Of a stretch of 64,000 nucleotides of DNA, positions 16,352 through 50,741 are shown in pieces; position 1 is the stretch's first letter; the number at the start of each line of letters is the position of its first letter. The stretch is from Accumulibacter sp. (GTDB lineage Bacteria > Pseudomonadota > Gammaproteobacteria > Burkholderiales > Rhodocyclaceae), in assembly GCA_024235715.1 (NCBI GenBank), contig JACKLW010000018.1, forward strand, positions 27,447-91,446, written 5' to 3'. The position numbers and the translations under genes were made by a program. The notes under the pieces are model-generated. The model saw nothing but the letters and a program-made list of their open reading frames with translations, searched no databases and was not told the DNA's origin.

Positions 16352-16402
16352 CTCGGGCTCATAACCCGAAGGTCGCAGGTTCAAATCCTGCCCCCGCTAC
16401 CA
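16352..16402 (+). other. Attachment site: tRNA-fMet 3' fragment (island A junction, left junction of island B)
   Basis: CTCGGGCTCATAACCCGAAG, then the T-arm GCAGGTTCAAATCCTGC and the end CCCCCGCTACCA match the anticodon arm (CAT), T-arm and acceptor end of an initiator tRNA. The 5' half is absent: upstream bases do not form a D-arm. It is therefore a duplicated 3' end produced by tRNA-targeted integration. The last bases (CGCTACCA) differ from the host version at 50724-50736 (CGCAACCA), which places the island B crossover inside GCCCCCGC at 16390-16397. Confidence 0.85.
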
Positions 16403-18053
16403 ACACTATCTTGGAAGGCTCCGGAATATTGTCATTGACAGCGTTCCGGAGCCTTTCTCGTTTCTGATGGCCCGTTTTATCGGCCGCCATGATCAGGATT
16501 CCCGCCAGATCGCCATAAAGGTCAATCTGAAGCTCCTCGCGACCTTCTTTGGGTGTCAGGACGATCTTCTCGATCAGGCCGCGCAGATGCTTGGCTGCCT
16601 CTCCCTGGCCCCCGGAGTGGCTTAAAGTCTCCCGCAGGGACGCCACTTCCTCCCGGTAGCGCATCGCCATGGCCGGATGGAGGAGGGGCCGGGGGTCCGT
16701 GCTTCCCTGCGTGATCTGGTCCTCCAGGGCTTCCAGCCGGGCCACAATCCGCTCCAGATCGTCCCTGACCAAGGCGGCTCCGATCCCCTCGCGGATGGCC
16801 TTGAGGATATGCGCGCGCTCTTTTGTGAGCTTGTCCTTCTCGGCCTTCGCCTCAAGCAGGGCGGAATCCTGGGCGCGGCGCAGGGCGTTGAGAGCGCGGG
16901 TGTACTCTTCGCAGAAGATGTGGAGCAGGTCATCGCGCATCAGGTGGGTCTGGAGGGCCGAGAGGACTTTGCTCTCCAGCACGTCCCGCTTGATCGTCTT
17001 GCGGTTGGCGCAGACGCTCTCGCCCTTGTTCTTGCTGGCCGCGCAGCCATAATGACTCGCGTTGATCTTCGCATACCCGCCGCCGCACACCCCGCAGCGC
17101 AGCAGGCCCGAGAGCAGATATCGTGGACGGTTGCGGTGCCACAGGCCATTCGGCCTGGCATCGAGGTCCTTCTGGCGGGCTTTGGCCGCCTCCCAGAGGT
17201 CCTGCGGGATAATCCGCAGCTCCGGAACACCTTGCCGCACCCACGCGCTTTCGTCATTGAGGCGCGTCACCCGCTTGCCGGTGGCCGGGTCCTTAATGAA
17301 GCGCTGGCGGTTCCAGACCAACTGCCCGATATAAAGCTCGTTGTTCAAAATGCCCGTACCCCGGCGGCGGTTGCCGTTGATCGTGCTCTGCCCCCAAGCC
17401 TGTCCGGAAGGAGCGGGGATGCGTTCCTCATTCAGCTTCGCGGCGATCGCCTTGGGGGAGCGGTTTTGCATCGCGTATTCCTCGAAGATGCGGCGGATGA
17501 TCGCGGCCTGCGTTTCATTGATCGCGCGCTCGCCCTTGAGGGCCTCGCCGTTCGCATCAAAGTGTTTCACCACGTCATAGCCGTAAGAAATCCCGCCCCC
17601 GGATTTGCCGTGCTCCACCCGTCCGCGTAATCCCCGGCGGGTTTTATCGGCAAGGTCTTTAAGAAACAGCGCGTTCATGGTTCCCTTCAAACCGATATGC
17701 AGGGTCGAGATCGCGCCTTCCGAGAGGGTGACCATCTCCACACCGGCGAACTGCATACGCTTGTACACACCGGCAATGTCTTCCTGGTCGCGGCTTAAGC
17801 GGTCGAGCGCTTCGGCGAGGACGATCTCAAAGCGCCCGTCATTGGCATCGCGGATCAGGGCCTGGATGCCCGGACGCATGAGCGAAGCCCCGGAGAGCCC
17901 GGCATCGCTGTAACACTCGGTGATGGTCCAGCCATTCAGTTGCGCGTGTTCGGTGCAGAGCCGCACCTGGTCCTCGATCGAATGATCGCTTTGCAGATCG
18001 GAAGAATAGCGGGCATAGAGCGCCACGCGGAATGTGTTCGAATCTTTACTCAT
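16359..18053 (-). CDS. Large serine recombinase of island B, with C-terminus read from antisense tRNA
   Basis: 564 residues as integrated. The resolvase domain covers residues 9-150 with the nucleophile in RYSSDLQSDHS; next come a recombinase domain (about 165-280), a zinc ribbon (LRCGVCGGGY, then YGCAAS and SVCANR), and a coiled coil (about 385-425). The last residues, LVAGAGFEPATFGL, are the antisense translation of the tRNA-fMet 3' end, and the stop codon is formed at the tRNA anticodon. The alternative 3' end (50558-50737) at the other end of the element codes LVAGAG in the same frame, then 53 other residues. The circular element would encode a 609-residue protein. The start overlaps the preceding small gene by one base (TGATG). 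It integrates and excises island B; site and product switching are inferred from the junctions. Confidence 0.92.
   Translation of the reverse strand: MSKDSNTFRVALYARYSSDLQSDHSIEDQVRLCTEHAQLNGWTITECYSDAGLSGASLMRPGIQALIRDANDGRFEIVLAEALDRLSRDQEDIAGVYKRMQFAGVEMVTLSEGAISTLHIGLKGTMNALFLKDLADKTRRGLRGRVEHGKSGGGISYGYDVVKHFDANGEALKGERAINETQAAIIRRIFEEYAMQNRSPKAIAAKLNEERIPAPSGQAWGQSTINGNRRRGTGILNNELYIGQLVWNRQRFIKDPATGKRVTRLNDESAWVRQGVPELRIIPQDLWEAAKARQKDLDARPNGLWHRNRPRYLLSGLLRCGVCGGGYAKINASHYGCAASKNKGESVCANRKTIKRDVLESKVLSALQTHLMRDDLLHIFCEEYTRALNALRRAQDSALLEAKAEKDKLTKERAHILKAIREGIGAALVRDDLERIVARLEALEDQITQGSTDPRPLLHPAMAMRYREEVASLRETLSHSGGQGEAAKHLRGLIEKIVLTPKEGREELQIDLYGDLAGILIMAADKTGHQKRERLRNAVNDNIPEPSKIVLVAGAGFEPATFGL
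16415..16455 (+). terminator. Strong hairpin inside the recombinase 3' end, 12 bases after the tRNA fragment
   Basis: AAGGCTCCGGAA at 16415-16426 and its exact complement at 16444-16455 form a 12-bp stem with a 17-base loop, followed on the plus strand by TCTCGTTTCT. The position right after a tRNA CCA end suggests a tRNA-type terminator read on the plus strand. It also lies in coding sequence of the recombinase on the minus strand (around NDNIPEPSK). Confidence 0.55.
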
Positions 18054-18241
18054 CAGTCTGTCCTGAAGTCTTGACGCGAGTTTCTAAAGTCGCGTTCGGC
18101 GGCTGCGCGCGCCAGGGCCTTGACCAACATGATGAGCTTCGGATCGGCGGCGCGCGCGGAGTCCGGGGAGCCTCCATTATGACTCTGCTGCCTTTGCGGT
18201 GAAAGGCGCAGAGATCGGTGCTTGTCACCGCGCCCGGCCAT
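18053..18241 (-). CDS. Small protein coupled to the serine recombinase
   Basis: 62 residues (MAGRGDKHRSLRLSPQRQQS...), with a C-terminal helical part (PKLIMLVKALARAAAERDF). Its TGA overlaps the recombinase ATG by one base (TGATG), so the two are translationally coupled. The basic N-terminus would fit a nucleic-acid contact. Coupling suggests a helper, such as a directionality factor, but nothing in the sequence proves this. Confidence 0.7.
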   Translation of the reverse strand: MAGRGDKHRSLRLSPQRQQSHNGGSPDSARAADPKLIMLVKALARAAAERDFRNSRQDFRTD

Positions 18242-18244
18242 GAT

Positions 18245-18370
18245 CTACGCGCCTTCTTCCAGCGTAGCGGGCACGGGATTAACGATCCGTAAAGAGATTC
18301 CGCGCAAAGCCGCGCTGGATGCGGCTTTGGCGAGGATCGTTGAGCGCGTTCTCATGCCTATGACGCTCAT
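18245..18370 (-). CDS. Very small ORF coupled to the coupling-protein gene
   Basis: 41 residues (MSVIGMRTRSTILAKAASSA...). The ATG overlaps the stop of the VirD4-like gene by four bases (ATGA), and its stop is three bases before the next start. Position in a chain of overlapping genes is the main support. No motif. Confidence 0.5.
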   Translation of the reverse strand: MSVIGMRTRSTILAKAASSAALRGISLRIVNPVPATLEEGA

Positions 18371-20061
18371 GCCGTCCCGCCCTGTGCCGTCTTCGCGCTG
18401 CCGGAGGGCGCAGAATTTTTTTCATGCGCGCCGCACGAAGAGCGTTTTGCCCAGCCCCGATCCTGGAAGTAGGGGAGTTTCTTGGCGCGGATGACGGGCT
18501 GCCCGGCGATCGCGATCAGTTGCTCCTCTTCATCCAGGCGCGCGATCTCATCGGGGCTCAGGACCGGAAACCCCCGTTCGCCGACCGACAAGCGCCAGGG
18601 CGAGAGGAGATTCTCGCCGTCGCGCGCGATGCTCCGCCCCTTGCGGGTGGAAGAGCCGATGCGCGTGCTCCACGCCTTGCGGTCTTCAAGGCTGCGGATG
18701 CTCCATGCCTGGATCAGGCTCGATTGCTCCTCGATGATCCCCGTTCCGTTGGGACCGTAAATCTCAAGCGGCTGGCGGCGGCTCTGGAAGATCATCAGGG
18801 CGCGCACCCCCTTGCCGGGCAGGAGCGAGAGCGCCTTGCCGATATTGGGCAGGCGGCCCAGATTGCCCATCTCTTCGAGCAGGAACAGAAGCTTTGTGTG
18901 TCGCTCATCCATGGTGGGCGAGGCGGCGATGGTCTCCAGCAGGAGCGTGACGATCAGCCCCATCCACGGCCCGTGGGTTTCCAGTTTTGACTCTGGAAGG
19001 ATCAGGTAGAGCGCGGTCTTGCCGTCCAGCACCTCATCAAAAGTGAAGTCGCTTTCCAGCAGCGATTGCCCGAACTCCGAATGCGCGTCATAGAGATCGA
19101 GCGCATTGAGCGCGTTATCGCGGAAGGCTCCGAAGGTCTTCACGTATTCGGGCGCGAGCCAGTCATAGAGCGCATTCCCGTATTCGCGCACCAGCCCGGA
19201 GAAGAGGTTCGAGCCCTGCATGGTCGCGGCGATCGCGTGTTTTCCGGCTTCGCTCGCCCACACGCAGGCGCGCAGGCCGGGCAGGGTGCATTTCTTCGGC
19301 TCGAAGGCAGCCAGATACAAGAGAAACGTGACGATCAGCCTGCGCCCGCCATTGCGGAAGAAGAACCCGTCCCCGCCTTCATGCGCGCCGCCGCGTTCGG
19401 GAATCAGTTGCAGGGCGATCAGCTTGGAGAGCGCATGGAGTTCGCGCCCGCCGGTGCGCAGCACATCCTCGACCAGAATACGCAGCGGGTTAAAGCGCAA
19501 TCCCGGAATGTCGCGCGCACTAAACGGATTGAGGATGAGAACGCGCTGCCCGTCGTTCTTGCGCCAGGCCGCCGTGCGTTCGGTGAGTTCGCCTTTCACG
19601 TCGGTGACGATCACCGAACCGGAGGTCCAGTGCAGGAGGGCCGGGATCACGAGCGCGGTCGTCTTGCCGGTGCGCGAAGGCGCGTAGGTCAGCATATGGC
19701 CGTTGCCGCGCGCAAAGGGGTCGTAGAAGAGCTTCTTTCCCTCCAGAGTGCCGATGAAGAGGCCCCGCCGGTCATGGGCCATCTCCAGGACGAAGCGATC
19801 ATGAAGATTAGCCAGGCGCGCCTGCCCGTATTCACCGGAAAGGATGCGGCTTTCATGCAGGAGGTTGATCTGCGCGGCGCTTTCCAGCCCCCGCGCGGTA
19901 TAGGCGATCAGCGCCTTGAGGGTGAGCAGAAGCGCGAACCCCATCAGGATCAATCCGAACAGGTAGGCTTCTTTGTATACGGACAGCCACGCCCCCGCCC
20001 ACAAGAATAGAAACGCAACCAGCAGGGCTTTCAAGGGGGAGGATCGGGGCATGCGGCGCAT
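18367..20061 (-). CDS. VirD4/TraG-type type IV coupling protein
   Basis: 564 residues. Two N-terminal membrane segments (about residues 10-25 and 32-52) precede the ATPase. Walker A is LTYAPSRTGKTTALVIPAL, followed by SVIVTDVKGELTERTAAW, the usual coupling-protein motif. The Walker B region reads LLFLLEEMGNLGRLPNIGKA, with Glu-Glu where Asp-Glu is common. Family role: it feeds the relaxase-DNA complex to a conjugation pore. No pore genes are in the element, so it would act with a foreign secretion system, or with the neighbouring vWA and membrane proteins. Two bases separate it from the upstream vWA gene. Confidence 0.9.
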   Translation of the reverse strand: MRRMPRSSPLKALLVAFLFLWAGAWLSVYKEAYLFGLILMGFALLLTLKALIAYTARGLESAAQINLLHESRILSGEYGQARLANLHDRFVLEMAHDRRGLFIGTLEGKKLFYDPFARGNGHMLTYAPSRTGKTTALVIPALLHWTSGSVIVTDVKGELTERTAAWRKNDGQRVLILNPFSARDIPGLRFNPLRILVEDVLRTGGRELHALSKLIALQLIPERGGAHEGGDGFFFRNGGRRLIVTFLLYLAAFEPKKCTLPGLRACVWASEAGKHAIAATMQGSNLFSGLVREYGNALYDWLAPEYVKTFGAFRDNALNALDLYDAHSEFGQSLLESDFTFDEVLDGKTALYLILPESKLETHGPWMGLIVTLLLETIAASPTMDERHTKLLFLLEEMGNLGRLPNIGKALSLLPGKGVRALMIFQSRRQPLEIYGPNGTGIIEEQSSLIQAWSIRSLEDRKAWSTRIGSSTRKGRSIARDGENLLSPWRLSVGERGFPVLSPDEIARLDEEEQLIAIAGQPVIRAKKLPYFQDRGWAKRSSCGAHEKNSAPSGSAKTAQGGTA

Positions 20062-20063
20062 GG

Positions 20064-21110
20064 TTAGTTCCTTCCGACTTCCAAAACCTGCACGCCCGAG
20101 AGCGAGACGCCCAGGCTTCGAAAGAAGCGCTCCAGTTCGGTCTTTACGTCGGAAGTCCCGGTGATTTGCAGGTCGGCAAGACCGCGCAGCAGGGTCGGCT
20201 CATGCACCCCCGCCCAGAAGACGAAGATCTTCGCGCCGGAGGATTTCTTTGCGGCGGCAAGGCTTGCCAGCAACCCGCCCGGATCGGGCGAGGCCGTATC
20301 CACCCCGTCGGTCACCGACAGCACGATCGGCGGCAAGGTGTTGGCCCCGCGCACCGGCGGCGCACGCAGCCCCTCATCAAGCGCCGTGAGCAACTTCGTG
20401 CCGCCGTTCGGGGCAGGTACAGCATTCAGCGCATCGCCTGAAGCCCCGCAGATGTGATGACCGCCGGGGATGGGCAGCGCGGTAACCGCGTCATTGAAGG
20501 TGAGTATCCGGCAGCGCGCATAGAGCGGCAGGCTGGAGAGAAAAGACCGGCTGGCGGTAATCACAGCGTCCATGTGCGCCGCCATCGAGCCGGAGACATC
20601 GAGCGCCAGAGTGACGGGCAGCAGCGCGTGCTGCGGGATTGCAGCCGGGCGATAATTCAAGGGCAGAGGATTGAAGTCCGTATCGAAGACGGCGACCTGA
20701 TCGGATGCGGGCGCGATCAACGTTCCGTGCGCATCCGCAAACAGCACCAGCACCTCGCGCGCAGAACCCGCCGTACTGACGCCGGTGATGGTCACTTTCG
20801 CGACCGGGCCGCCCGCGATCACGATGAGGTTGTGCTCCTTGTGCCCGGCGAAGGCGGTAAAGGGGGTTCCGTCGGGTAAGGTTAAATGCGAGCGCCGGAT
20901 GCGTAAGTTCAGCAGCGTATCGGCGCTGGCCGAGAGATCGAAGGCGATCTCCGGTGTGCCCAGCGTGCGCACGTCCTGATCCGGATCATGCAGTTCGAAG
21001 GTAGCGCGTTGCTCCTCATCCGGCGTTGTGATCGCAAAACGCGGTTCGTCAGAATGTGCGCTCAGGCCCAACAGAAAGGCTGCAATGAATGCAACCGTAT
21101 GAATCTTCAT
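20064..21110 (-). CDS. Exported von Willebrand factor A-domain protein
   Basis: 348 residues with a signal peptide (MKIHTVAFIAAFLLGLSAHS). A beta-rich N-terminal part (residues 25-165) precedes a vWA domain with the metal-binding motif LALDVSGSMAAH, a threonine segment near GGTKLLTALDEGL and the aspartate in IVLSVTDGVD. vWA domains bind protein partners through a bound Mg ion; the protein should be periplasmic or surface-exposed. It overlaps the gene before it by four bases and lies two bases before the coupling-protein gene. A role in mating-pair contact or in a chaperone-like complex is conjecture. Confidence 0.85.
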   Translation of the reverse strand: MKIHTVAFIAAFLLGLSAHSDEPRFAITTPDEEQRATFELHDPDQDVRTLGTPEIAFDLSASADTLLNLRIRRSHLTLPDGTPFTAFAGHKEHNLIVIAGGPVAKVTITGVSTAGSAREVLVLFADAHGTLIAPASDQVAVFDTDFNPLPLNYRPAAIPQHALLPVTLALDVSGSMAAHMDAVITASRSFLSSLPLYARCRILTFNDAVTALPIPGGHHICGASGDALNAVPAPNGGTKLLTALDEGLRAPPVRGANTLPPIVLSVTDGVDTASPDPGGLLASLAAAKKSSGAKIFVFWAGVHEPTLLRGLADLQITGTSDVKTELERFFRSLGVSLSGVQVLEVGRN

Positions 21111-21799
21111 GGCGTCTCTCCCAATGTGAAGGGCGCGGTCCGCAGCGCGTCCTTGCTGCGCTCGACATCCAGAAAGCTCACGCGCGCGCCGGTCTGCCGC
21201 AGCGTTGTAAACGCGCTCTCCAGGAATCCCTCCCAGACGAACTTCTGGTGCGGGGAGACCCAGAAGAAGGAGACCGAGCGGATACGCGTGGAAGCGGCAA
21301 ACGCGCCCGGAATGTCGCCCTCCGTGGGCGGGAGTTGCGGCAGGGTGATGCGCGTGATATCCGCGCAGGGACGGGGGGTGTGGATCAGCGAACTGAAGAC
21401 GATGATGTGGATTTCACTCACGCCCTCGCGCTCTAGCTGGGCGAGATTGCTCTGGAGTTCCCGGAAGGCTCCGGGCAGGGCGTTGCAGCGCGCGGGATCG
21501 GCTTTAACCGCCTCAACCAGCGCCTGCGCACGCGCCGGATCGCGGCGAAGGGTGAGCGGCGTGCCGCTCCAGACCGTGCGGCCCAGCGAGGTGGAGATCA
21601 CCTCGATTCTTGTGTTCGCGCTATCGCGTTTGGTCGCCAGCGCCTTGAGGTGGGCGAGGAGCATCAATTTATATTGGTTGGCCTCCTGCGCGTCGAGCAG
21701 CACGCCGGAATCATCAATCAGCAGTTCGAGCGCGATGCGCTCTTGCGCGAGTGCAGGAGCGCAGACGATCAGCACGACAGTCAGGATGAGAATCTTCAT
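21107..21799 (-). CDS. Exported vWA-like protein of unknown function
   Basis: 230 residues with signal peptide MKILILTVVLIVCAPALAQE. The first strand carries LLIDDSGVLLDAQE, similar to a vWA metal site, but with DDSG-V in place of DxSxS, so the metal site may be incomplete. A second strand-like segment is IHIIVFSSLIHTP. It overlaps its neighbours by four bases on each side (ATGA), so it is part of the same translational chain as the second vWA protein and the coupling protein. Confidence 0.75.
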   Translation of the reverse strand: MKILILTVVLIVCAPALAQERIALELLIDDSGVLLDAQEANQYKLMLLAHLKALATKRDSANTRIEVISTSLGRTVWSGTPLTLRRDPARAQALVEAVKADPARCNALPGAFRELQSNLAQLEREGVSEIHIIVFSSLIHTPRPCADITRITLPQLPPTEGDIPGAFAASTRIRSVSFFWVSPHQKFVWEGFLESAFTTLRQTGARVSFLDVERSKDALRTAPFTLGETP

Positions 21800-22431
21800 G
21801 ACGAAGCCCTCCCCGCATGCGTTCCAAGCGCGCGTTTAGCCGCGCGCAGGATATGGGCGGTCGCCAGGCCCAGCGCCGCGTTAATCAGGATCAGCGCCAC
21901 GCACATCAGCAGCATCGGCCAGAAGCCCGTTGCATGACCGGCCAGCGCCGGGATGGGTGAGGGGGCGCTTTCCGCCTGCACGCGCAAATAGAGCGCGGCG
22001 AACTCGGTGACGATGACAAAGCCGTAGAGCAGGACCAGCAGGCCGGTGACGATCTTGTGCAGACCGCTCGCAAAGAAGCTGCGCGGGTTGGCAAAGAGTT
22101 CCTGGTGGCGTTCGATCAGTTGCCCGAACAAGAAGACCGGGGTCCCGACCGCCGCCAGGCCGAGCACGCCATTGATCAGCGTCGAAACCGTGACATTCTG
22201 GAAGAGCGACCATTCGGGCAGGCCGAGCGCGTCGATCAGGAAGACATCGCTTCCGACCGGGTTGACCAGCGAATAATTCGCCGTATGCAGGAGCCAGTTG
22301 AACCCCTCGACGAAAAGCGCTCCGGTCAGCCGCAGGATCACCCAGAGCCGGTCGGCCGGTTCGAGCGGCGCGGTGCTGCCGGAGCCCTTTGGCGGCTGCC
22401 AGCTTGTGAAATTTTCTTCGAAGTCAGACAT
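21796..22431 (-). CDS. Multi-pass membrane protein, first gene of the coupling-protein operon
   Basis: 211 residues from the ATG at 22431, with GGAGG upstream; the longer open frame to 22812 lacks a start signal. There are about four hydrophobic helices, including LILRLTGALFVEG-like (residues about 30-45), VSTLINGVLGLAAVGTPVFL (about 88), KIVTGLLVLLYGFVIVTEFA (about 130) and FWPMLLMCVALILINAALGL (about 170). No family is recognised. It starts the minus-strand chain that continues through two vWA-like proteins to the coupling protein and recombinase. It could anchor the exported vWA proteins at the inner membrane. Confidence 0.75.
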   Translation of the reverse strand: MSDFEENFTSWQPPKGSGSTAPLEPADRLWVILRLTGALFVEGFNWLLHTANYSLVNPVGSDVFLIDALGLPEWSLFQNVTVSTLINGVLGLAAVGTPVFLFGQLIERHQELFANPRSFFASGLHKIVTGLLVLLYGFVIVTEFAALYLRVQAESAPSPIPALAGHATGFWPMLLMCVALILINAALGLATAHILRAAKRALGTHAGRASS

Positions 22432-22657
22432 ATCAAAGCCTCCTTGCGCCCGCCCGCAGAAAGTGCCGGGCGGACGCCTCACGGTGATCGTGGAACGGGC
22501 CGGAGCATTGTCCGAACCGCTTACGGGGGCTTTGCGCAAAGCTTGGAGATAAGCGTGAGTCCTCCTCGTTGCGGCGTCAAAAGAGCTGGTCAACAATAGA
22601 GACAAGGAGAGCAACGCACGCCGCTCATAACCTCTTGTCGGAGAACGCGATATCTGA

Positions 22658-23473
22658 GTGAAGACAAATAAAAAAATCCAAAAAAACAAGCTACGCGCGA
22701 AGGCCAAGCAATCCCAGTACAAGACCGAGCAGGTTCTGCGCTGTTTTGCCGAGGACATGTCCACCAAAGAGGCCGCCCAGAAAACGCGGATCAGCGTAGC
22801 GACCATACGCAAGAGATATGCGGAGTTTCGCTCGGCCTTGTTCCAGGCGGCCTTGTGTTACCGGCAGCTCTTCAACGGGGCGGGAATCGTCATGGCTTTC
22901 GGTCCGCCGCCGCACGCGGAGGAGATGATCCAGACCCTGCATCGCCGCCGGCAGGGAAGAAGCCGGTCCGGGGATCGGTTCATCTGGGAAATCGTCATCC
23001 GCGATTATGCGCGCTTTCGCTATTCAGAGGCCGAGCAAGCAGCTCTGAGCGCTCTGGCCCTTTTTCATCTCGCCCGCTTTCACAACGTTCTGATATCTGA
23101 ATGCCGCAACAAACCAGCATGGATGGGACTGGTTCCCGAGGCTCCCACCACTGAAATGAGCTACAGGGCATTTTTGTCCGGACCCGTGATGGAACTGACC
23201 ATGAAACAGGCCATCGTTGATCTCTGGGTTGCTGTGGAGAAGGGGCGTTTCCGGATGCCGGACTACGTCTGGACCCTGCTGTTCAAGGATCGGTCCCCAA
23301 AAAACCCGGCTGAGCGCATCTATCGTGACTTGCGCTGGTATCTGCTTAAACATCCTCACGGTTCCGACCGAGTCGAAACCAGCGAGTATTGGGATAACTT
23401 CCCGTCACCCTCAGCCGATGAGGTGCAAAAGGCAACAGCCGCGTTGTTTACCAGACTTGGCGCATCAGGATGA
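22658..23473 (+). CDS. Hypothetical DNA-binding protein (N-terminal HTH)
   Basis: 271 residues starting at GTG. A lysine-rich start precedes a helix-turn-helix-like segment (CFAEDMSTKEAAQKTRISVA then TIRKRYAEFRSALFQAAL, residues about 28-62), resembling resolvase/MerR-type readers. The remainder is helical with no known domain (FIWEIVIRDYARFRYSEAEQ). It is transcribed away from the membrane-protein gene; the 226 bases between them should hold both promoters. A regulator of the divergent transfer operon is a reasonable guess from position only. Confidence 0.65.
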   Translation: MKTNKKIQKNKLRAKAKQSQYKTEQVLRCFAEDMSTKEAAQKTRISVATIRKRYAEFRSALFQAALCYRQLFNGAGIVMAFGPPPHAEEMIQTLHRRRQGRSRSGDRFIWEIVIRDYARFRYSEAEQAALSALALFHLARFHNVLISECRNKPAWMGLVPEAPTTEMSYRAFLSGPVMELTMKQAIVDLWVAVEKGRFRMPDYVWTLLFKDRSPKNPAERIYRDLRWYLLKHPHGSDRVETSEYWDNFPSPSADEVQKATAALFTRLGASG

Positions 23474-23664
23474 ACGTAGGAGTTTTTTGCAGGTGCGAAT
23501 GAAGACGCGCGGCCAGAGCGGGATTCACAGGAGGCGTTAAGAAAGCCTTAAACAATCTCTGATTGAATAGAAGAAGGTCCTGATTATTGCCACGGAACGG
23601 CGCTCGCTCGATCAGGGCTCCCTTCCCCGGCGTCGTTCACACATGAACGGTGTGAAATACGGTC

Positions 23665-23991
23665 ATGATTGACTTCACGAAAAGCATCAAGCCGACCTTC
23701 GAGGCGCAGGTCACGGCGGCGCTGATGATCCAGACGAATGCGCTGATCCCCATCAAGCTGGCTGCGCGCCTGTGCGGAATATCGCGTCAGGAGATTGACC
23801 GGCGCGTGCATAACGGCACGTTTCCCAAACCGCACAAGCTTTCAGGTAAAAAGCGTTCCATGCGCAAGGCGTTTTATTTGAGTGAAATCCACGACTGGAT
23901 ACGCGATCCGAAGAACTACCGGCGCGTAGAAGACGCGGAACAATCCACAGGAAGTTTCGCGGATGGTGATGAGTACCAGCACTTCGAATAG
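23665..23991 (+). CDS. AlpA-like HTH protein (excisionase/regulator type)
   Basis: 108 residues. The core reads LIPIKLAARLCGISRQEIDR then RVHNGTFPKPHKLSG, the winged-helix layout of AlpA/MerR-like excisionases, in which the wing selects DNA next to an attachment site. The tyrosine integrase follows 380 bases downstream with the tRNA-Arg attachment site between them, the classic arrangement for an excisionase. A shorter start at 23725 (MIQTNALIP) is possible. Confidence 0.75.
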   Translation: MIDFTKSIKPTFEAQVTAALMIQTNALIPIKLAARLCGISRQEIDRRVHNGTFPKPHKLSGKKRSMRKAFYLSEIHDWIRDPKNYRRVEDAEQSTGSFADGDEYQHFE

Positions 23992-24084
23992 CGGCTGAGT
24001 AGCCCAGTGAGTAGCCCGAGGGTTTTCTGGTGATTGGCTATTCCGGCCGAGTAATACTAAACCCCTAAAACAATTTGATAAAAT

Positions 24085-24134
24085 TGGCGATCCCGGCAGG
24101 ACTCGAACCTGCAACCTACTGCTTAGAAGGCAGT
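24085..24134 (-). other. Attachment site: 3' half of tRNA-Arg (TCT), probable attP of second integrase
   Basis: Read on the minus strand, the segment gives the anticodon arm ACTGC-CTTCTAA-GCAGT (anticodon TCT), the T-arm GCAGG-TTCGAGT-CCTGC, and the acceptor end CGGGATC-G-CCA. The 5' half (D-arm) is missing. It is 240 bases from the tyrosine integrase start. I see no second copy in the window, so it is more likely an unrecombined attP than a used junction. Confidence 0.75.
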
Positions 24135-38951: not shown

Positions 38952-38959
38952 GGTCAACA

Positions 38960-43810: not shown

Positions 43811-44134
43811 ACTCTGGCATGACTGGCTTCAGGGCTCCAGAGGTTTGTGGGCGCATCGATCTGCCTTTTGACGGGTTCTATCGGCGCGCATGTTTGCGTG
43901 GTTTTGCGCGCGTGTGTCTGGTCAGGGAAACGTCTCCTTTTCTTCTGATGTGCGGTGTCCTCATCGCTTCACTGTTCTAGCCGGGGGCACCCGGCCCGGC
44001 AACGGGCGGCCCGCGCAACCGTGTTGCCCGTTTCCCCCTTCGTCTACGCCTTCGGGGTGCCTGTCCGGGCTGATCCCCCGTCTTCGATGTTTCGCGTCAA
44101 TCGGACAACTCGCAAACATCAGGAGACAAAAACC
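43811..44134. other. GC-rich leader upstream of ardC
   Basis: No gene. It has inverted repeats such as CCGGGGGCACCCGGCCCGG and CAACGGGCGGCCCGCGCAAC with its partner GTTGCCCG (43981-44032), so a structured leader or divergent promoter is likely. The ardC ribosome site AGGAGA lies at the end (44121-44126). Confidence 0.4.
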
Positions 44135-45049
44135 ATGACCACCTCAATTCAAGCGCGTAAAGATGTCTATAGCCGCGTTACCGATAAAATCATCACCGAT
44201 CTGGAGCAGGGCGTGCGCCCCTGGATGAAACCCTGGAACGCCGAGCACGCCGCCGGACGGATCACGCGGCCTCTCCGTCATAACGGAGCGCCCTATAACG
44301 GCATCAACGTCCTGATGCTCTGGTCAGCCGCCGTCGATCACGGCTACGCCGCGCCGATCTGGATGACCTACAAGCAGGCCGCCGAACTCGGTGCGCACGT
44401 CCGCAAGGGCGAGAAGGGCGAGCCGGTCGTCTACGCCAACACGCTTACCCGCACCGAAACCGATGAGGCCACAGGCGAAGAAATCGATCAGACCATCCCC
44501 TTCATGAAGGGATACACGGTCTTCAATGTCGAACAGATCGAAGACTTGCCCGAGCACTACTACGAACTCGCCGAGCCGGTACTTGATCCGGTCGCGCGTA
44601 TTCAGCACGCTGAAAGCTTTTTCGCCGCCACCAAAGCCGAAATCCGGCACGGCGGGAACAGCGCGTATTTCTGCCTCTCGACCGATCACATCCAGATGCC
44701 GCCCTTCGAGAGCTTCATGGACGCGGAAAGCTACTACGCGACACTCGCCCACGAGGCGACCCACTGGACACGCCATCCTTCTCGACTGGATCGTGACCTT
44801 GGCCGCAAGCGCTTCGGTGACGAAGGCTACGCCAGAGAAGAGCTTGTCGCTGAACTCGGCAGTGCCTTCCTGGCCTGCGATTTGGAAATCGCGCTGGAGC
44901 CGCGTGCGGACCATGCGGCCTACATCGAAAGCTGGCTTAAAGTCCTCAAAGAAGACAAGCGGGCCATCTTTCAGGCCGCCGCCCACGCGCAGCGCGCCGC
45001 TGACTACCTGCATAGCCTGCAAACGGCCAGCAAAGAAGCCGCAGCATAG
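44135..45049 (+). CDS. ardC: ArdC-like antirestriction protein
   Basis: 304 residues from the ATG at 44135 with AGGAGA upstream; the extension to 43955 is not needed. The N-terminal ssDNA-binding domain (residues about 1-130) has RPWMKPWNAEHAAGRITRPL and RHNGAPYNGINVLML. The C-terminal domain is a zincin-type protease fold with YYATLAHEATHWTRHPSRLD (HExxH) and the third ligand Glu in REELVAELGSAFL. ArdC-type proteins enter the recipient with transferred DNA and protect it from restriction. Fits a mobilizable element. Confidence 0.92.
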   Translation: MTTSIQARKDVYSRVTDKIITDLEQGVRPWMKPWNAEHAAGRITRPLRHNGAPYNGINVLMLWSAAVDHGYAAPIWMTYKQAAELGAHVRKGEKGEPVVYANTLTRTETDEATGEEIDQTIPFMKGYTVFNVEQIEDLPEHYYELAEPVLDPVARIQHAESFFAATKAEIRHGGNSAYFCLSTDHIQMPPFESFMDAESYYATLAHEATHWTRHPSRLDRDLGRKRFGDEGYAREELVAELGSAFLACDLEIALEPRADHAAYIESWLKVLKEDKRAIFQAAAHAQRAADYLHSLQTASKEAAA

Positions 45050-45108
45050 TCACTGCGGCTTCAAGAGCCTGCACCGCAGGGACGCGGCGCAGGCTTTTGC
45101 GCGAAAGC

Positions 45109-45288
45109 TCAAAGGCCGGGAGCGCGGGAGGCCAGTTCGGCGCGGATATTCTCCAGCGAGGCCAGAGCATTGCGCCGTTCATGGCTGGTTTCGTCGTTGC
45201 CGACCAGCGCATTGAAGATGTCGCGGTAGAGGCCGCGCAATTCGCCGGTGGATTTCGAAGCCAGTTCGAAGCGTGTTACGAGTTTCAT
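45109..45288 (-). CDS. Small helical protein, 59 residues
   Basis: MKLVTRFELASKSTGELRGL onward, with AAGGAGGAGATC directly before the ATG, one of the best ribosome sites in the island. Two amphipathic helices are predicted by eye, ending ASLENIRAELASRAPGL. It converges with ardC, the stops being 60 bases apart. No function recognised. Confidence 0.7.
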   Translation of the reverse strand: MKLVTRFELASKSTGELRGLYRDIFNALVGNDETSHERRNALASLENIRAELASRAPGL

Positions 45289-45645
45289 GATCTCCTCCTT
45301 GAGGTTCTAAGGAGGCCCGGACGATTCCGGAGCCTTTCCTGGCCCCGGCACACACAATCATCAGACAGGGAAAGGCATCCGGATCGGACCGGACGGACAC
45401 ATGAAATACTCAAGGAGGATCAGGGAAGGACGGGCGCTTCGAGTGGGAAAGAAAGACACGAACGGCGCAGCGGACAGGGCCGCAAAAATTCGCCGCACTG
45501 GATAGCGTCGAACAGATAAAGGGGAATGCTAAACAGACATGTAATGGCGCATGATGTTTTGGAAAACATCCAGGAAAACGGTTAAACGAAATGGAGTTCT
45601 ACATATTTCTTGAGCGACAAATCCAAACCATGCTAAGTGCATGGT
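45289..45645. other. Intergenic region at a composition change
   Basis: GC-rich up to about 45500, then AT-rich. A 34-codon frame at 45401 has no support. Holds the promoter for the 59-residue protein gene. Nothing else recognised. Confidence 0.4.
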
Positions 45646-46164
45646 ATGTCAACGCGGCGCGATAAAGGAAATCCAACGCTTAACGACTCTGATCCACGTC
45701 ATTACGTTACTGATCAAAAAGAGAGTCGTGCAGGAAGTGAATGGGGGAACGCTATTCGTGGGGATTTGATCCGCATCATTGCATGTCATGAAAGCCGTAT
45801 AAAAAAATACCTTAAAGGGAAGATGCACCGTTCAGATCTACCATTAGAAGTTCGAAAACTCTTTAACGACAAAGAAAAGCTCGGCGAGTTCGTAAGAAAC
45901 CTGTGGAACAGCCCAGAGTACAAGGAAAAGAAACAACTTCTCTCGAACAGGCGATCCGTGTCGCAAAAGAAGGCGCAGAAATCAAGGGAATGGAAGAAGC
46001 AAGAGCGCCAGATTAGAGAAGAGTTCTTATTGGAGTATGAACGATCCAAAAAATCAGAAATACAAAGCGAGCGCATTCCCGAGTGGCTTCAGCAGGAAAT
46101 CCAACAACAAGGAGGGCTCGAACAATGGGTAAGAAATCAGAAGCGAGCGCAAGCCAATGGTTAG
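45646..46164 (+). CDS. Hypothetical highly charged protein
   Basis: 172 residues, rich in Lys, Arg, Glu and Gln. The C-terminal half (SREWKKQERQIREEFLLEYE) is likely a coiled coil. AT-richer than the flanking mobilization genes, a sign of separate origin. Start uncertain: GTG at 45637 or ATG at 45646. Family unknown. Confidence 0.55.
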   Translation: MSTRRDKGNPTLNDSDPRHYVTDQKESRAGSEWGNAIRGDLIRIIACHESRIKKYLKGKMHRSDLPLEVRKLFNDKEKLGEFVRNLWNSPEYKEKKQLLSNRRSVSQKKAQKSREWKKQERQIREEFLLEYERSKKSEIQSERIPEWLQQEIQQQGGLEQWVRNQKRAQANG

Positions 46165-46278
46165 TCATAATTCTGTTGCACCCACGTCTCTCAGTATCAG
46201 AGCAAGTGGATCACGGGCTATTTGAGTAGACCACCCAGACTAAGTTATTCGGAAGACCAATTTGAGGCCAGTTTATTG

Positions 46279-46710
46279 ATGAAGAATCTGCTAACTGCAA
46301 AACAGGTTTGCTTTTTTGTATCCACATCAAGCTTTTTCTTTCTATTGGCCTTTTCTTGTATGGCTATGAACTTACAAAACCATCCTGAAGAGCGGAATGA
46401 AGACAGTTTCTCGTGGACAGGGATAACAGTTGAGCAGCTTGCTAAAGCATGCGAAGAAGCCGTGGAGGATAAAACAAATAGTACTTTGGATTGTTTTAGC
46501 TACATGGACGGTTTCCTGGATGGCTATGCACTCACGGCACTGTCAGACAATAATCAGTCAGAATTCTGCCTTCCTAAAAACCCGCCTGTTTCAAAAAAGA
46601 CTATTGCCAAAATGTTCGTGTATCTCGCAAAAAAACCGGACATAAGCCAAGATCCAGCCTTTTTAATTTTATCTGCTATGCTCAGTCAGGTATTTCCCTG
46701 TGATGAATAG
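46279..46710 (+). CDS. Exported Rap1a/Tai-like protein
   Basis: 143 residues with signal peptide (MKNLLTAKQVCFFVSTSSFF...). The mature part has the Rap1a/Tai pattern: LAKACEEA, CFSYMDGFLDGYAL, FCLPKNPPVSKKTIAKMFVY, and a C-terminal ILSAMLSQVFPC. Founding members are immunity proteins against type VI peptidoglycan amidases. It lies 48 bases before an RHS-tip toxin fragment. Whether it protects against that toxin is doubtful, since that one looks like a protease. Confidence 0.7.
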   Translation: MKNLLTAKQVCFFVSTSSFFFLLAFSCMAMNLQNHPEERNEDSFSWTGITVEQLAKACEEAVEDKTNSTLDCFSYMDGFLDGYALTALSDNNQSEFCLPKNPPVSKKTIAKMFVYLAKKPDISQDPAFLILSAMLSQVFPCDE

Positions 46711-46758
46711 GAGAAATCTTATTAAAGGTCATTCTCACGATGGACTCAAATATGGGGG

Positions 46759-47664
46759 TTGACCAATTCCGGTAACCTGATCCGTGAATATATTTATCTT
46801 AACGGCGAGCCTCTGGTGCAGGTCGATGCCGGTTCACCCGAAGTGCTGACTTATCTGCATACGGACCATTTAGCTACCCCACGCTATGGCACCAATTCAG
46901 CAGGAAGCACCGTCTGGACGTGGGATTTCGGCGCGTTCGGGAAGGAAGTACCCACGGGCAGTGCGACGGTCAATCTCCGCTTCCCCGGCCAGTACTTCGA
47001 TTCCGAAACCGGCCTCCACTATAACTGGAACCGCTACTACAACCCCGCCACAGGGCGGTATGTTTCTAGTGATTTAATAGGGTTAATTGGAGGCTTGAAT
47101 ACATATGCTTACTCATATTCAAACCCTCTACTTCGACATGATACGAGTGGATTTTATGCAGAGGTTTATCAGCCCAGTCAGAATGTTGTAAAAATTGATT
47201 TGCCTTCATTTACACGACCACTTGGAAGAATGACCCAAGAGCAAGTGAATTACTATGTTGAAGAAATAGAGGAAAGATGGAGTGGGCAAATTGGGAAATA
47301 CTTTGTGACGACAAAAATTACCAAACCAAAACCAAACTGTCCTCTTGATAAGGCAAACATTATTTTTGTCCATGACAAGCCGAGTTCTCAATCACCTAGG
47401 GGAAATGCATATGTAACAAGCAACTTGGTTATGCATCTTTTTAATGACAGCACTGGTTGGACTGCTGCTCACGAGGCTGGGCATCTTATGAATTTGAAAC
47501 ATATGTTTTTCGATCATTATGACTCTACAGGTAGGAAGGTGCGAATAATTGAGCCTGGCTATGAGGACAGTATTATGGGTGGAAGAAGAGATACAGGTCC
47601 ATCAGAAAGGGATATTGAGGATGTACTAAAATACAATGATGTAAGGAAACATGATAATAGGTAA
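46759..47664 (+). CDS. Orphan RHS tip with C-terminal zinc-metalloprotease-like toxin domain
   Basis: 301 codons counted from a TTG. Residues about 10-125 are the RHS-associated core (YLHTDHLATPR, LRFPGQYFDSETGLHYNWNR, YYNPATGRYVSSDLIGLIGG). After the junction near residue 130 the C-terminal domain contains AAHEAGHLMNLKHMFFDHYD, an HExxHxxxxxH zinc site. The large RHS shell is missing and a stop lies at 46723, so it is a displaced cassette tip and may not be secreted. The RHS part is GC-rich while the toxin part is AT-rich, the usual toxin-swap signature. Confidence 0.8.
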   Translation: MTNSGNLIREYIYLNGEPLVQVDAGSPEVLTYLHTDHLATPRYGTNSAGSTVWTWDFGAFGKEVPTGSATVNLRFPGQYFDSETGLHYNWNRYYNPATGRYVSSDLIGLIGGLNTYAYSYSNPLLRHDTSGFYAEVYQPSQNVVKIDLPSFTRPLGRMTQEQVNYYVEEIEERWSGQIGKYFVTTKITKPKPNCPLDKANIIFVHDKPSSQSPRGNAYVTSNLVMHLFNDSTGWTAAHEAGHLMNLKHMFFDHYDSTGRKVRIIEPGYEDSIMGGRRDTGPSERDIEDVLKYNDVRKHDNR

Positions 47665-47866
47665 GGACGCACGTATATCTATTATTTCAAGCAATGCTCA
47701 TGTGTTGCCAAGTTTTGTTAGAGGCACGGCAACTAATGAAATAAAGCTATTATCTGTATTTATTCAGACCAGATCTGACACATGCGCGACAGTCCAGATC
47801 AATAACTTTCAGATCAAACTGGCACTATCTGTTTTTGAGAAATCTAATAACTCACTGTTCATATAG
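47651..47866 (+). CDS. Possible small ORF overlapping RHS toxin end
   Basis: 71 codons (MIIGKDARISIISSNAHVLP...) overlapping the RHS stop by 14 bases. It stands where an immunity gene is expected, but composition and ribosome site are weak. It also overlaps the end of the opposite gene. Confidence 0.3.
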   Translation: MIIGKDARISIISSNAHVLPSFVRGTATNEIKLLSVFIQTRSDTCATVQINNFQIKLALSVFEKSNNSLFI

Positions 47867-48409
47867 CTGCTTATAGGAATCGCAACGGAACTCAAAAGAT
47901 TCACGGTCTTCCTCTTCAATATAGGATTTTTCGCCAGATTCTATGAACAATGAACATTTTTGATGATCTTGCTTCAAATTTTCAGAATCTACTATTGGTG
48001 GACCGGGTATATACTTCCATCCATTATCGTATATTATCTTGTTTACAGCCTTTTGTCCGCATGGCGGAGGATATGAAGAGTCTTTGCTAACCCATGCTCC
48101 TTTCCCTTTATTTTCCGTCGGGTCAAATTCAAAATGCTCATCGCTGGTAAAATTGTAGATGAGACATACAAATTGAGTTCCGTCTTCAGTTGGACCTTCA
48201 CTATTTCTGCTCGTAGTAAAAAAGAAAACGCGACACTTCAGAGAATTACCATTTTCTTTGTAGCATCGCACTGTAATTTCCCTTAGATGAATCCTGTGAT
48301 CCTTTTCATCTTTTAAAACGTAGTCAGTTGTAAAAAAATCTAACGGCTCTTGTGCGTATGCGTTCAGAGATAACGTCAAGATAAAGATAATTAACCAACT
48401 AAACTTCAT
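47852..48409 (-). CDS. Exported protein of unknown function
   Basis: 185 residues from the ATG at 48409 with signal peptide (MKFSWLIIFILTLSLNAYAQ). The mature part has six cysteines (RCYKENG, LKCRVFF, FVCLIY, PPCGQK, KCSLFI, FRCDSY), so likely periplasmic with disulphides. AT-rich like the neighbouring toxin domain. It could be the toxin's immunity or an unrelated passenger; orientation is opposite to the RHS gene. Confidence 0.65.
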   Translation of the reverse strand: MKFSWLIIFILTLSLNAYAQEPLDFFTTDYVLKDEKDHRIHLREITVRCYKENGNSLKCRVFFFTTSRNSEGPTEDGTQFVCLIYNFTSDEHFEFDPTENKGKGAWVSKDSSYPPPCGQKAVNKIIYDNGWKYIPGPPIVDSENLKQDHQKCSLFIESGEKSYIEEEDRESFEFRCDSYKQLYEQ

Positions 48410-48561
48410 CGCGTCATATTTCCCATGCATCACTTTAGATTATCTGTCCATTGATAAACATACAGAGAAAAATGCATTATTCAAAGGATTAGCTTTTCGT
48501 GTACGGCCTACGCGGCTCTCAAAGCCTTCTAAAGGTTTTCATGCTGAAAATTTATTGTTCT

Positions 48562-48825
48562 TCAGTTCAAAGACTTGCCTTCGAGACGGAAGGGATTGTG
48601 CAGCGCGCTCCAGGCTGAGAACAGTTGATCGTCGGGCATGGCAGCGAAGTGGTCTTTGAGATCAAGAATTTCCTGCGATAATCCGCTCGTTTTCATGTTA
48701 CGCAGGTTCCAGCGCAATATTTTGAATGGCTGGCGACAGAACATCGGATGCATCTCCAGCGCGATGAGCAGCGTTTCCAGATCGTCGATCATTTTTGCCG
48801 TGTCGTCGTCATGCATCGGGTTCAT
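48562..48825 (-). CDS. Small protein downstream of relaxase
   Basis: 87 residues (MNPMHDDDTAKMIDDLETLL...) with AAGGA upstream; it overlaps the 3' end of the relaxase gene by 17 bases. Acidic N-terminus, then MHPMFCRQPFKILRWNLRNM. Last gene of the mobilization cluster, function unknown. Confidence 0.65.
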   Translation of the reverse strand: MNPMHDDDTAKMIDDLETLLIALEMHPMFCRQPFKILRWNLRNMKTSGLSQEILDLKDHFAAMPDDQLFSAWSALHNPFRLEGKSLN

Positions 48826-50158
48826 GCCCTTTATCCTTGCCCCGCTTCTGATGCCGCGATTGCGGTAAATCGGGCTTTGGCTTATCAACGCCGAGATCGG
48901 CTTTTTTCACCTTGCCTTTGAATACGTCCGGCTTGATGTCGCGTTCGGCCTCGGGTGTCGTCAGTTTGATCATATTGGCCATGAGGTTTTGCATTTCTTC
49001 TTCATGCCTCTTGCGCATGGTTTCAAACTGGCCCTGCAACTTTTGCCGCTGTTCAAGCTGGAACTCGATCAGTTCCTGCCGTTCCTCGCGGTCGCGCACA
49101 TGGCACTGCCAGGCTTCCTTCTCGTTCTGTTTACGGATTTTCCAGTATTTGAGGGTGAGTTTGTCCCAGAGGCCCTTGAAGCCCTTGCGGATGCGCGAAG
49201 CCCGTACCTCCTGTTCCTTATCCCAGCGTTTGTCCAGATAGGCTTTCTGCGCCGCGCGGTCCTTGCGGTGTTGATCCGTCATGGTCTTTTTGATCCGCAG
49301 GAGCGGGCGCAATTCCTGATCATGCTTACGCTGGAGTTCGGCGCGGTAGGCTTCGAACAGGCTGCTTACCTGTTTTCCGATCTTTTCTTTGGCTTCCGAT
49401 ACAGAGGGCAGGGACTTCGGCGGACCGAGCCGCTGTTCGAGGGCTTTGGTCTTGATTCCGAGTTGGCGGCTCAGCGAGAGCACTTCCCCGTAGACATCGA
49501 CGGCCACGAAGCCACGCCGGTCACCGCGTGCGAGCATGAACCCGCGTTCGTTAAGAACAGCGTTGAACGCCTTCGCACTGTCCGCAGCCGCCCAGCATTC
49601 CTGCAAACAGGCTTTGATCGCCGACGCGCTGCGCCCGGTCCGCGCAGCCTGTTGCCATTCTTCCCGCGTATAGGTGAGGGGATTGCGGTGCGCCGGGTCG
49701 ATCAAGCCTTTGGGCATGGTCCAGCCATGCTCCATGAAAAGCTGACGCGATAGTGCCTGGAGCTTTGTGCGATCGAAGGCGATATTGACCGCCTTCATCT
49801 CGGTGGCATCAATCCGGCTCCAGACGCAATGCGCATGGCGTCGTCCTTCCTTCTCATGGAAGACGACCACGCGGGGCTGGCCTGTGAGCCCAAGCTTGCC
49901 TTCGATGTCCTTGAGGGCCTTCTCGAATGCCTCGACCGGGACGCTCTGGTCCTGCGGCGGGTTAAGGGAAAGCGAATAGAGATACTGTCTGCACCGGGTT
50001 CCCCGCGAGAGAGCCCAGGCTTCTTCGAGCGCGCCCGTGACATCGGAGGCCAGAAATCCCCGGACCTGATGGATTGTGACATGCTCGTTCTGCATCCCAT
50101 TCAGGAGATGTGCGGCCATCTGGCGTCCGCCGCCCCTGGAATTGCCCTTGAGGATCAT
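48809..50158 (-). CDS. Relaxase (MobA/VirD2-like mobilization nuclease)
   Basis: 449 residues. N-terminal nuclease domain: MILKGNSRGGGRQMAAHLLN, then VFHEKEGRRHAHCVWSRIDA with the paired histidines of relaxase motif III near residue 107. The usual catalytic Tyr is likely in QYLYSLSL or nearby, and I cannot fix it. The C-terminal half (about 250-420) is a long charged coiled-coil region. It nicks oriT and leads the strand to the VirD4-like protein. It overlaps mobC (four bases) and the next small gene. Confidence 0.88.
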   Translation of the reverse strand: MILKGNSRGGGRQMAAHLLNGMQNEHVTIHQVRGFLASDVTGALEEAWALSRGTRCRQYLYSLSLNPPQDQSVPVEAFEKALKDIEGKLGLTGQPRVVVFHEKEGRRHAHCVWSRIDATEMKAVNIAFDRTKLQALSRQLFMEHGWTMPKGLIDPAHRNPLTYTREEWQQAARTGRSASAIKACLQECWAAADSAKAFNAVLNERGFMLARGDRRGFVAVDVYGEVLSLSRQLGIKTKALEQRLGPPKSLPSVSEAKEKIGKQVSSLFEAYRAELQRKHDQELRPLLRIKKTMTDQHRKDRAAQKAYLDKRWDKEQEVRASRIRKGFKGLWDKLTLKYWKIRKQNEKEAWQCHVRDREERQELIEFQLEQRQKLQGQFETMRKRHEEEMQNLMANMIKLTTPEAERDIKPDVFKGKVKKADLGVDKPKPDLPQSRHQKRGKDKGHEPDA

Positions 50159-50565
50159 GGGCCATCCCCCTTATCGGTTCCGGTGTCCGGCTGGAGCCCG
50201 AGGGCGGTGAGCAGGAGGGTGCGCATGTTTCTGACGGCATCGCAGGATTCCAGCAGGGCATCATGGACATCGCGGTTAACGGGCAGGGAGCCGGTATTCG
50301 CAGCCCTGGCGAGTTGGTTGATGTTCTGGGAGATGCGTGAGGCCCCAAGTAGCCCCAGCAACCTGGCCAGTTCCGCCCGGTCCTTTACGGGCTTGGCTCC
50401 ACGGGTCCGGGGCCGGACCTGCCTCTCGAAGATGGCATCCTTGATATAGGTGCCCCAGGGCTGGCCGTCAGCCAGTTCGTCCAGAGCCTTGCGTTCTTCC
50501 TCGCTCAGGCGGAGCGAGAAGGGGGCCGGATAGGTTTTTTTGGAGGGAGGGCGCTTTCTAGCCAT
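50155..50565 (-). CDS. MobC-like relaxosome accessory protein
   Basis: 136 residues. A basic N-terminus is followed by PFSLRLSEEERKALDELADG, a ribbon-helix-helix start, and by the MobC-like core ELARLLGLLGASRISQNINQ (LARAANTGSLP). Such proteins open oriT for the relaxase. The ATG overlaps by eight bases (ATGGCTAG) the stop of the detached recombinase 3' end, which is strong evidence that this gene was downstream of that recombinase in an operon. Confidence 0.85.
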   Translation of the reverse strand: MARKRPPSKKTYPAPFSLRLSEEERKALDELADGQPWGTYIKDAIFERQVRPRTRGAKPVKDRAELARLLGLLGASRISQNINQLARAANTGSLPVNRDVHDALLESCDAVRNMRTLLLTALGLQPDTGTDKGDGP

Positions 50566-50634
50566 TTTTTGCCCCTCCCATTGATGTAGAAGGGGGTTTT
50601 CGGGTAGAATTCGCGCCCTGAAAGGTGCGGGCTC

Positions 50635-50679
50635 CCTCTAAGCTAGAAAGTAACGCACTTAGGGGTTGCGGCTTAGAGG
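50635..50679 (-). other. Candidate origin of transfer (oriT)
   Basis: Inverted repeat CCTCTAAGC (50635-50643) and GCTTAGAGG (50671-50679) flank, on the minus strand, TAAGTGCG (50654-50661), which resembles the nic core of RSF1010-type plasmids. It lies 70 bases upstream of mobC and inside the coding region of the detached recombinase tail. Assignment rests on position and the short core match. Confidence 0.5.
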
Positions 50680-50723
50680 TGATATCAAGGGCAGTGACAA
50701 GCGGTAGATAGCGTTGGCTACCA

Positions 50724-50736
50724 GCCCCCGCAACCA
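50724..50736 (+). other. Right junction (attR) of island B at host tRNA-fMet end
   Basis: GCCCCCGCAACCA, the last 13 bases of a betaproteobacterial-type tRNA-fMet. It shares GCCCCCGC with the left junction. Left of it is element sequence (GGCTACCA). Confidence 0.8.
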
Positions 50737-50741
50737 GATCC

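Follow-up and report, generated by a model that had tools for sequence, protein, structure and literature searches.

What becomes of an integrase gene, and of the genes that follow it, when the attachment site of a mobile element lies within that gene? The question is raised by a stretch of 64,000 nucleotides from Accumulibacter sp. (assembly GCA_024235715.1, contig JACKLW010000018.1, positions 27,447 to 91,446 of the forward strand), called the window here. The window carries a 34.3-kb integrated element with a large serine recombinase gene at one end and the mobilization genes mobC and relaxase at the other. The attachment site of the free element (attP) appears to lie within the 3' part of the element's own recombinase gene, which would be complete in the free form. 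At the level of sequence, integration at the 3' end of tRNA-fMet exchanges the last 53 codons for 8 that are read, together with a stop, from the antisense of the tRNA. It is considered probable, if by no means certain, that the same event cuts an array of mobilization genes and that gating of those genes is the main use of the arrangement.

Attachment sites and the two tails of the recombinase

The features at the two ends of the element are as follows.

16390..50731, no strand: integrated element, 34.3 kb, defined by two 8-bp cores and their flanks
16353..16402, plus: 3' half of tRNA-fMet (attL, the left attachment site); an intact copy lies elsewhere in the assembly
16390..16397, no strand: left core, GCCCCCGC
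16359..18053, minus: large serine recombinase, integrated form, 564 residues (Pfam Resolvase, Recombinase, Zn_ribbon_recom)
16359..16385, minus: tail FEPATFGL with its stop, written by the host as the antisense of tRNA-fMet
50558..50719, minus: recombinase tail written by the element (53 codons plus stop), continuous with the gene in the free form only
50724..50731, no strand: right core, GCCCCCGC, with host AACCA directly after it
50742..50779, no strand: host palindrome with 17-bp arms just beyond the right end; it faces mobC and might act as a terminator

At the left end the recombinase gene crosses the core into the antisense of tRNA-fMet and ends KIVLVAGAG-FEPATFGL*. At the right end a minus-strand frame through the core reads LVAGAGSQRYLPLVTALDITSKPQPLSALLSSLEGARTFQGANSTRKPPSTSMGGAKNG* and is open for 58 codons. 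The first-pass annotation of this DNA had described the LVAGAG-FEPATFGL ending with a same-frame continuation at the right end, and the sequence bears this out. Its prediction of a 609-residue protein in the circle, in place of the 564-residue integrated form, agrees with the residue count (556 shared residues plus 53). The resolvase catalytic domain, the recombinase domain and the zinc ribbon are all present in the window recombinase (Pfam).

The element is attached at the 3' end of a tRNA gene, and that end is restored by the element. The right core runs into AACCA, matching the intact tRNA-fMet of the same assembly. When the assembly was searched for the anticodon stretch of tRNA-fMet (at most 1 mismatch), two places were found, one intact and the other the window copy, a 3' half only. 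The intact gene is beyond the window, about 24 kb further left than the left core, and a tyrosine recombinase gene (14916-16346; Pfam) sits between it and the 3' half. ARAGORN found tRNA-Met at the attachment place in all four relatives submitted (L002, L016, L018 and L020). The tRNA end supplied by the element (16398-16402) is TACCA, replacing AACCA; this would alter what we take to be position 72 of the initiator tRNA.

The window alone leaves the status of the tail undecided, because the 8-mer core is uninformative and the open frame has a P of 0.068. Identity of the two cores was rejected as evidence, as the 8-mer occurs 7 times in the window against 6.4 expected. The frame of the tail stays open in 6.8% of dinucleotide shuffles, and a recombinase with no stop before its attachment site might simply continue into whatever follows. 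That the tail is more than chance is concluded from its relatives.

Right ends of related elements

A relaxase search of 22 genomes found 24 places in 14 of them; the core was absent from the fetched flank in ten. The compared set comprises the window and eight relatives whose right ends are homologous; L174 and L192 nearly duplicate L188. Each of the nine has its core 573-602 bp ahead of the relaxase, with a homologous tail after it. A relaxase search of 369 genomes of the class gave hits at E of 1e-100 or below in five, one of them the genome of the window, and a search of plasmids gave two records. In the class of genome G376 the same four other places were found again. A search with a profile of the tail in 14 genomes, two of them with known tails, recovered both and added three weak places, of which L208 resembles a degenerate relic and neither L209 nor L210 contains the core.

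Recombinases enter the core in one of two frames, 0 or 1. A long tail in the recombinase's own frame is found in the frame-0 pairs of ends (the window, L017/L178, L016/L187 and L014/L188) and in the frame-1 pairs (L019/L176, L020/L175, L003/L177, L022/L184 and L024/L185). This matched frame runs for 50 codons or more without a stop in 9/9 elements, against 1/18 of the other sense frames (frame 1 of genome PRO23; Fisher test p 2e-6, with rows that are non-independent). When four unlike right ends are added, the counts are 9/13 and 3/26 (p 5e-4, the rows likewise non-independent).

Eight tails were compared by plain nucleotide alignment, with L176 omitted as a near-copy of L175, and L174 and L192 as near-copies of L188. 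The sole non-triplet indel in the tail adjoins the core and divides the frame-0 from the frame-1 elements (2 nucleotides; 5 in L187). Beyond this indel the codon phase is common to 3598/3598 aligned cells. The fraction of mismatches is 0.37 at the first codon position, 0.34 at the second and 0.49 at the third (column test p 0.002), and protein-guided dN/dS is 0.24-0.76 for divergent tail pairs. These results suggest that the tail lost on integration is genuine coding sequence, kept in frame with the rest of the gene.

An alternative is that the stretch from the attachment site to mobC is kept only as DNA, as an origin of transfer (oriT) or a leader of mobC, with the open frame as a by-product. 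An oriT is frequently found near mobC; no oriT search was made here. The window tail (50558-50719) is 84% identical to that of L178, an Oleiphilus element, though the neighboring recombinase and mobC are only 66% and 55% identical. Such likeness suggests a short exchanged tract and counts in favor of this alternative. Constraint of this kind would not be expected to give a common codon phase, triplet indels, an excess of third-position changes and a matching frame shift, and it is judged improbable.

Uninterrupted genes are further evidence for a coding tail. Assembled contigs contain uninterrupted recombinase genes of 618 (L014), 612 (L022) and 608 (L024) codons, and two more places in the L014 genome are uninterrupted across the fetched flank (about 300 codons). 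A search for such genes had been proposed in the first-pass annotation, as had alternative tails written by the host tRNA and by the element, with a continuous frame when free; the relatives, including these three contiguous genes, agree. At the level of sequence, replacement of the tail upon integration and continuity of the gene across the attachment site in free forms are thus both demonstrated. PRO23 holds three places where the joint of recombinase, mobC and relaxase is uncut. A tyrosine integrase gene (3330-4619) lies near the uncut joint of L014 and may account for an uncut form that resides in the chromosome.

Several points weigh against the in-frame coding tail. The nine elements were selected by their homologous right end. 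The ends of L003/L177 and of L016/L187 are on different contigs of one genome; a single contig holds both ends of the window element, L017, L019 and L020, and the latter three elements measure about 33-37 kb by coordinates. At the unlike right ends (L023/L181, L032/L179, L034/L180 and L036/L195) the matched frame extends 18, 45, 45 and 40 codons, respectively, and falls short of mobC. L179 and L180 have a longer unmatched frame (88 and 89 codons), and PRO23 (L188) has an unmatched frame open for 86 codons. Values of dN/dS are 1.67 for window/L178 and 0.95 for L175/L176, and selection on residues is modest. Finally, since all five frame-1 pairs fall within one clade (Shimodaira-Hasegawa-like approximate likelihood ratio support 81), the compensating shift could have arisen just once. 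The frame relation foreseen in the first-pass annotation holds at the homologous right ends of all nine, and at the four unlike ends the matched frames are shorter. An open frame arising by chance could explain these short run-on tails, the second open frame in PRO23 and the result from the window alone. It would not predict the excess of open matched frames, the compensated indel or a stop placed at mobC, and seems extremely improbable.

A mobilization array probably split by integration

The genes on either side of the cut are as follows.

50155..50565, minus: mobC, its ATG overlapping the tail stop (Pfam MobC, 5.5e-05)
48809..50158, minus: relaxase, MobA/VirD2-like (Pfam Relaxase, 2.3e-13)
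18367..20061, minus: type IV coupling protein (VirD4/TraG), upstream of the recombinase in the same direction (Pfam T4SS-DNA_transf, 1.9e-57)
20064..21110, minus: protein with a VWA domain, encoded in the same array; the order recurs in L014, L022 and L024
21107..22812, minus: two further open reading frames (ORFs) of 230 and 338 residues on the same strand, without a Pfam match

The window tail terminates on the start codon of mobC (ATGGCTAG, 50558-50565). The tail stop and the mobC ATG share an 8-nucleotide overlap (ATGNNTRR) in six of the nine elements, and the tail ends 1 nucleotide ahead in the other three. The ATG was taken as the mobC start; the automated choice had picked an upstream codon in L174, L175, L176 and L185. 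Because the tail stop meets the mobC start in all nine, the free form would be a single array of coupling protein, recombinase, mobC and relaxase. In L014, L022 and L024, the genes for the VWA protein, coupling protein, recombinase and mobC are consecutive on one strand, with the relaxase next. One small ORF separates the coupling protein from the recombinase in L022 and L024, where the contig end cuts the relaxase. The uncut array is thus seen in relatives, and for the circle of the window element we infer the same array, with the relaxase rejoined to its operon by excision.

Integration would sever this array inside the recombinase gene, parting the recombinase and coupling protein from mobC and the relaxase. 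Integrated mobC and relaxase would be cut off from the upstream promoter. Excision would restore a single operon, in which the recombinase runs through its tail to the mobC start and the tail may bring ribosomes to mobC by translational coupling. This separation, missed in the first-pass annotation, is the likelier consequence of the cut. The relaxase and accessory mobilization genes lie alongside the integrase (Pfam), as in integrative mobilizable elements. No mating-pair genes were found among the element genes submitted to Pfam, a subset of the ORFs, and a coupling protein is present.

A comparable dependence on excision is described for Tn916. In the excerpted account, its transfer genes are promoterless while integrated and are joined to a promoter by circularization, with a terminator insulating the end (PMC11658703). 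The gene order in the window fits an excision-dependent operon of this type. The cut falls here within the recombinase coding sequence, whereas that account, as far as excerpted, does not place the Tn916 joint inside the integrase gene (PMC11658703). The overlap of stop and start at mobC suggests translational coupling in the window element. Hairpin-like stretches, judged by eye, flank L178, L187, L176 and L177. Three further considerations count against gating. A formal scan called no intrinsic terminator at the palindrome at 50742-50779. A promoter scan at mobC found one site on the wrong strand and none on the mobC strand. The case for the window element is also one built from its sequence.

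Structure and possible functions of the tail

The exchange of tails could also alter the enzyme. The uninterrupted L014 protein was modeled with AlphaFold (39 sequences, predicted template modeling score 0.41), and the model is confident to about residue 525 except for short loops. It includes a coiled-coil arm formed by a helix pair (370-417/422-445). Foldseek matched it to full-length serine integrases across most of the length at low TM-scores of 0.2-0.3; SPbeta YokA, Bxb1 and phiC31 were the best fold matches. Residues 527-618, the linker and tail, have a predicted local distance difference test score near 30 and are predicted to be disordered, which also weighs against the explanation preferred here. 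Because the exchange falls in this predicted disordered extension, the folded enzyme would be left intact. Both forms are probably active enzymes, since neither lacks the catalytic, recombinase, zinc or coiled-coil region.

Alternatively, as proposed in the first-pass annotation, the 609- and 564-residue forms might favor different directions of recombination, so that the enzyme itself signals whether the element is integrated. Six aligned tails (the divergent L187 and L188 excluded) share 15 invariant columns, the dN/dS of the tail is mostly below 1, and in Myxococcus phage Mx8 a new 3' end of int is reported, in the part of that work drawn on, to have changed integrase specificity (PMC6070905). 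The predicted disorder argues otherwise, as do the short unrelated tails of other lineages and the tail being less alike than the recombinase, mobC and relaxase in most pairs of the nine, to which window/L178 is a clear exception. A switch at the protein level is regarded as unlikely.

Recombinase relatives and the frame of the core

The position of the core was followed in more distant recombinases, starting from seven aligned sequences. The best 80 of at least 577 loci in bacterial genomes and the best 80 of 93 loci in viral contigs were combined with nine from searches of the element's own genome and class (the window copy included) and four chosen plasmid stretches. Some of these 173 loci are near-duplicates. 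The core lies within the recombinase frame in 151 of them, in frame 0 (reading VAG) in 137, in frame 1 in 14 and in frame 2 in none. Frame-1 loci read GSGG or alike; one of the 14, L056, is doubtful. In the remaining loci the core was not found (12), the contig ends (9) or the gene stops ahead of the core (1). Eight changes of the frame label are needed on a 66-row tree. The arrangement is real and conserved in the window's subfamily, and the placement of attP within the recombinase frame extends to a wide clade.

In some integrated relatives the core is entered in a different frame and the protein ends GSGG(R/W)I*, so FEPATFGL is not needed by the family. A tRNA-written tail as a required feature was accordingly rejected, and the role suggested for it in the first-pass annotation found no support. 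Several of the 12 loci without a core have VAEEGFEPPTQGL or a similar ending, one that resembles the antisense of another tRNA. L130, L131, L133, L136, L142 and L146, ending VAEEGFEPPTQGL or VAEEGLEPPTRGL, are apparently integrated at a different tRNA gene. The recombinase 3' ends of L012, L060, L064, L084 and L085 have two or three in-frame stretches resembling the attachment site, as if they were remnants of earlier insertions.

Free-form tails in the wider clade

Phage genomes provide further examples. In Rhizobium phage RR1-A, as deposited, the integrase gene contains a core-like site 20 codons ahead of the stop, and Microcystis phage Mae-JY30 has a similar site in its integrase gene. No core-like site was found in the integrase gene of Microcystis phage Mae-JY29. 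Three further viral scans (the best 80 of each) brought the total to 408 loci, with 301 distinct closed recombinases. Of these, 200 are of the integrated type, and all but two of the 200 end GL, RL or [RWG]I. The 95 free-form candidates, seven of which later proved to be integrated, were reduced to 52 free-form tails by removal of 33 without core letters and 10 by hand (six integrated, four damaged or chance).

The tails of L045, L083, L086, L112, L116, L169, L213 and L215 end LAA, FAA, IAA or FVA and resemble the ssrA tag. A precedent is mycobacteriophage BPs, where, in the portions of the reports used, attP sits in the repressor gene and insertion at a tRNA truncates the repressor, with the stop provided by a host base; the free form bears an ssrA-like tag, and the integrase is treated alongside those of the tyrosine family (PMC4557955, PMC9262239). 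By analogy, a free-form tail could set the stability of the recombinase through an ssrA/ClpXP-like C-terminus that integration removes. Endings of the type [AVILFM]A occur in 17/52 free-form tails, against 8.8% of 1033 background ORFs. They occur in 15/44 when one row per cluster is kept (p 3e-6), and in 7/22 rows first met after the idea arose (p 0.002). The background is made of crude ORFs, however, and five of the 33 dropped candidates also bear the motif, giving 22/88 without the core filter. The absence of the motif from all 200 integrated forms is dictated by the tRNA sequence, which fixes the ending. The tails of close relatives end NG, NV, HA, GA or ER. An ssrA-like degron on the window tail was rejected, as this tail ends AKNG. 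The window thus differs from BPs in both respects, with attP in the recombinase gene itself and no ssrA-like tag. Control of stability in this way is very doubtful as the explanation for the arrangement; ssrA-like endings are confined to some members of the wider clade, and the window's subfamily is without them.

A broader proposal is made tentatively, and at less than even confidence. This clade of tRNA-targeting serine recombinases, in bacterial elements and phages, may use its own gene as a sensor of integration, with the host initiator tRNA writing the C-terminus of the integrated enzyme and the element that of the free enzyme. The exchange may set protein behavior (stability where the free tails have ssrA-like endings, directionality in the other lineages), together with the joining of the relaxase operon in mobilizable members.

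Other genes in the window

The element carries a defense-type gene set at 32234-41713 (DUF499, DUF3780, a DUF1156 methyltransferase and a PLD-helicase), and ArdC is also carried between its two gene groups. No drug-resistance gene was found among the ORFs submitted to Pfam and PADLOC, a subset of the total. A tRNA-like fragment within 24088-25690 (Rfam, 33 bits; none by ARAGORN) lies beside a second tyrosine integrase gene (24374-25690). These two, inside an element with a serine recombinase, are probably a nested element. At 8511-14159 a protein of 1882 residues has weak sacsin-like and NOV_C matches (Pfam).

Known systems and implications

An integrase changed by its own integration is already known from phage Mx8 and from SSV-type elements. 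In Mx8 (IntP/IntR), the excerpted reports place attP in the integrase gene, and integration yields a new 3' end (PMC6070905, PMC4383910). The window element shares both features by sequence. The Mx8 integrase is a tyrosine recombinase; here the enzyme is a large serine recombinase with a tRNA-written tail and a mobilization operon behind it. The suicidal archaeal integrases of SSV type, as described in the part of the source used, likewise have the attachment site within the integrase gene, which integration splits into two inactive pseudogene parts (PMC8371274). In the window element, just the C-terminal tail is exchanged.

The present analysis documents serine recombinases that use tRNA genes. 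A version with a tRNA-targeting serine recombinase, a split mobilization operon and compensating indels was not found in the literature searched, and a literature search on serine recombinases with tRNA-fMet found nothing. FEPATFGL was not found among the literature matches listed, which is not proof of its absence. Further literature was drawn on in excerpt (PMC8566455, PMC12884075, PMC5704250, PMC10083194, PMC3783163).

The findings make testable whether a mobile element can tie its transfer to excision through an operon that is cut inside the integrase. They also suggest that recombinases recorded with a GFEPATFGL-like end are forms of the integrated state, whose free tail would lie at the other end of the element. 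This matters for the cloning of large serine recombinases out of integrated elements.

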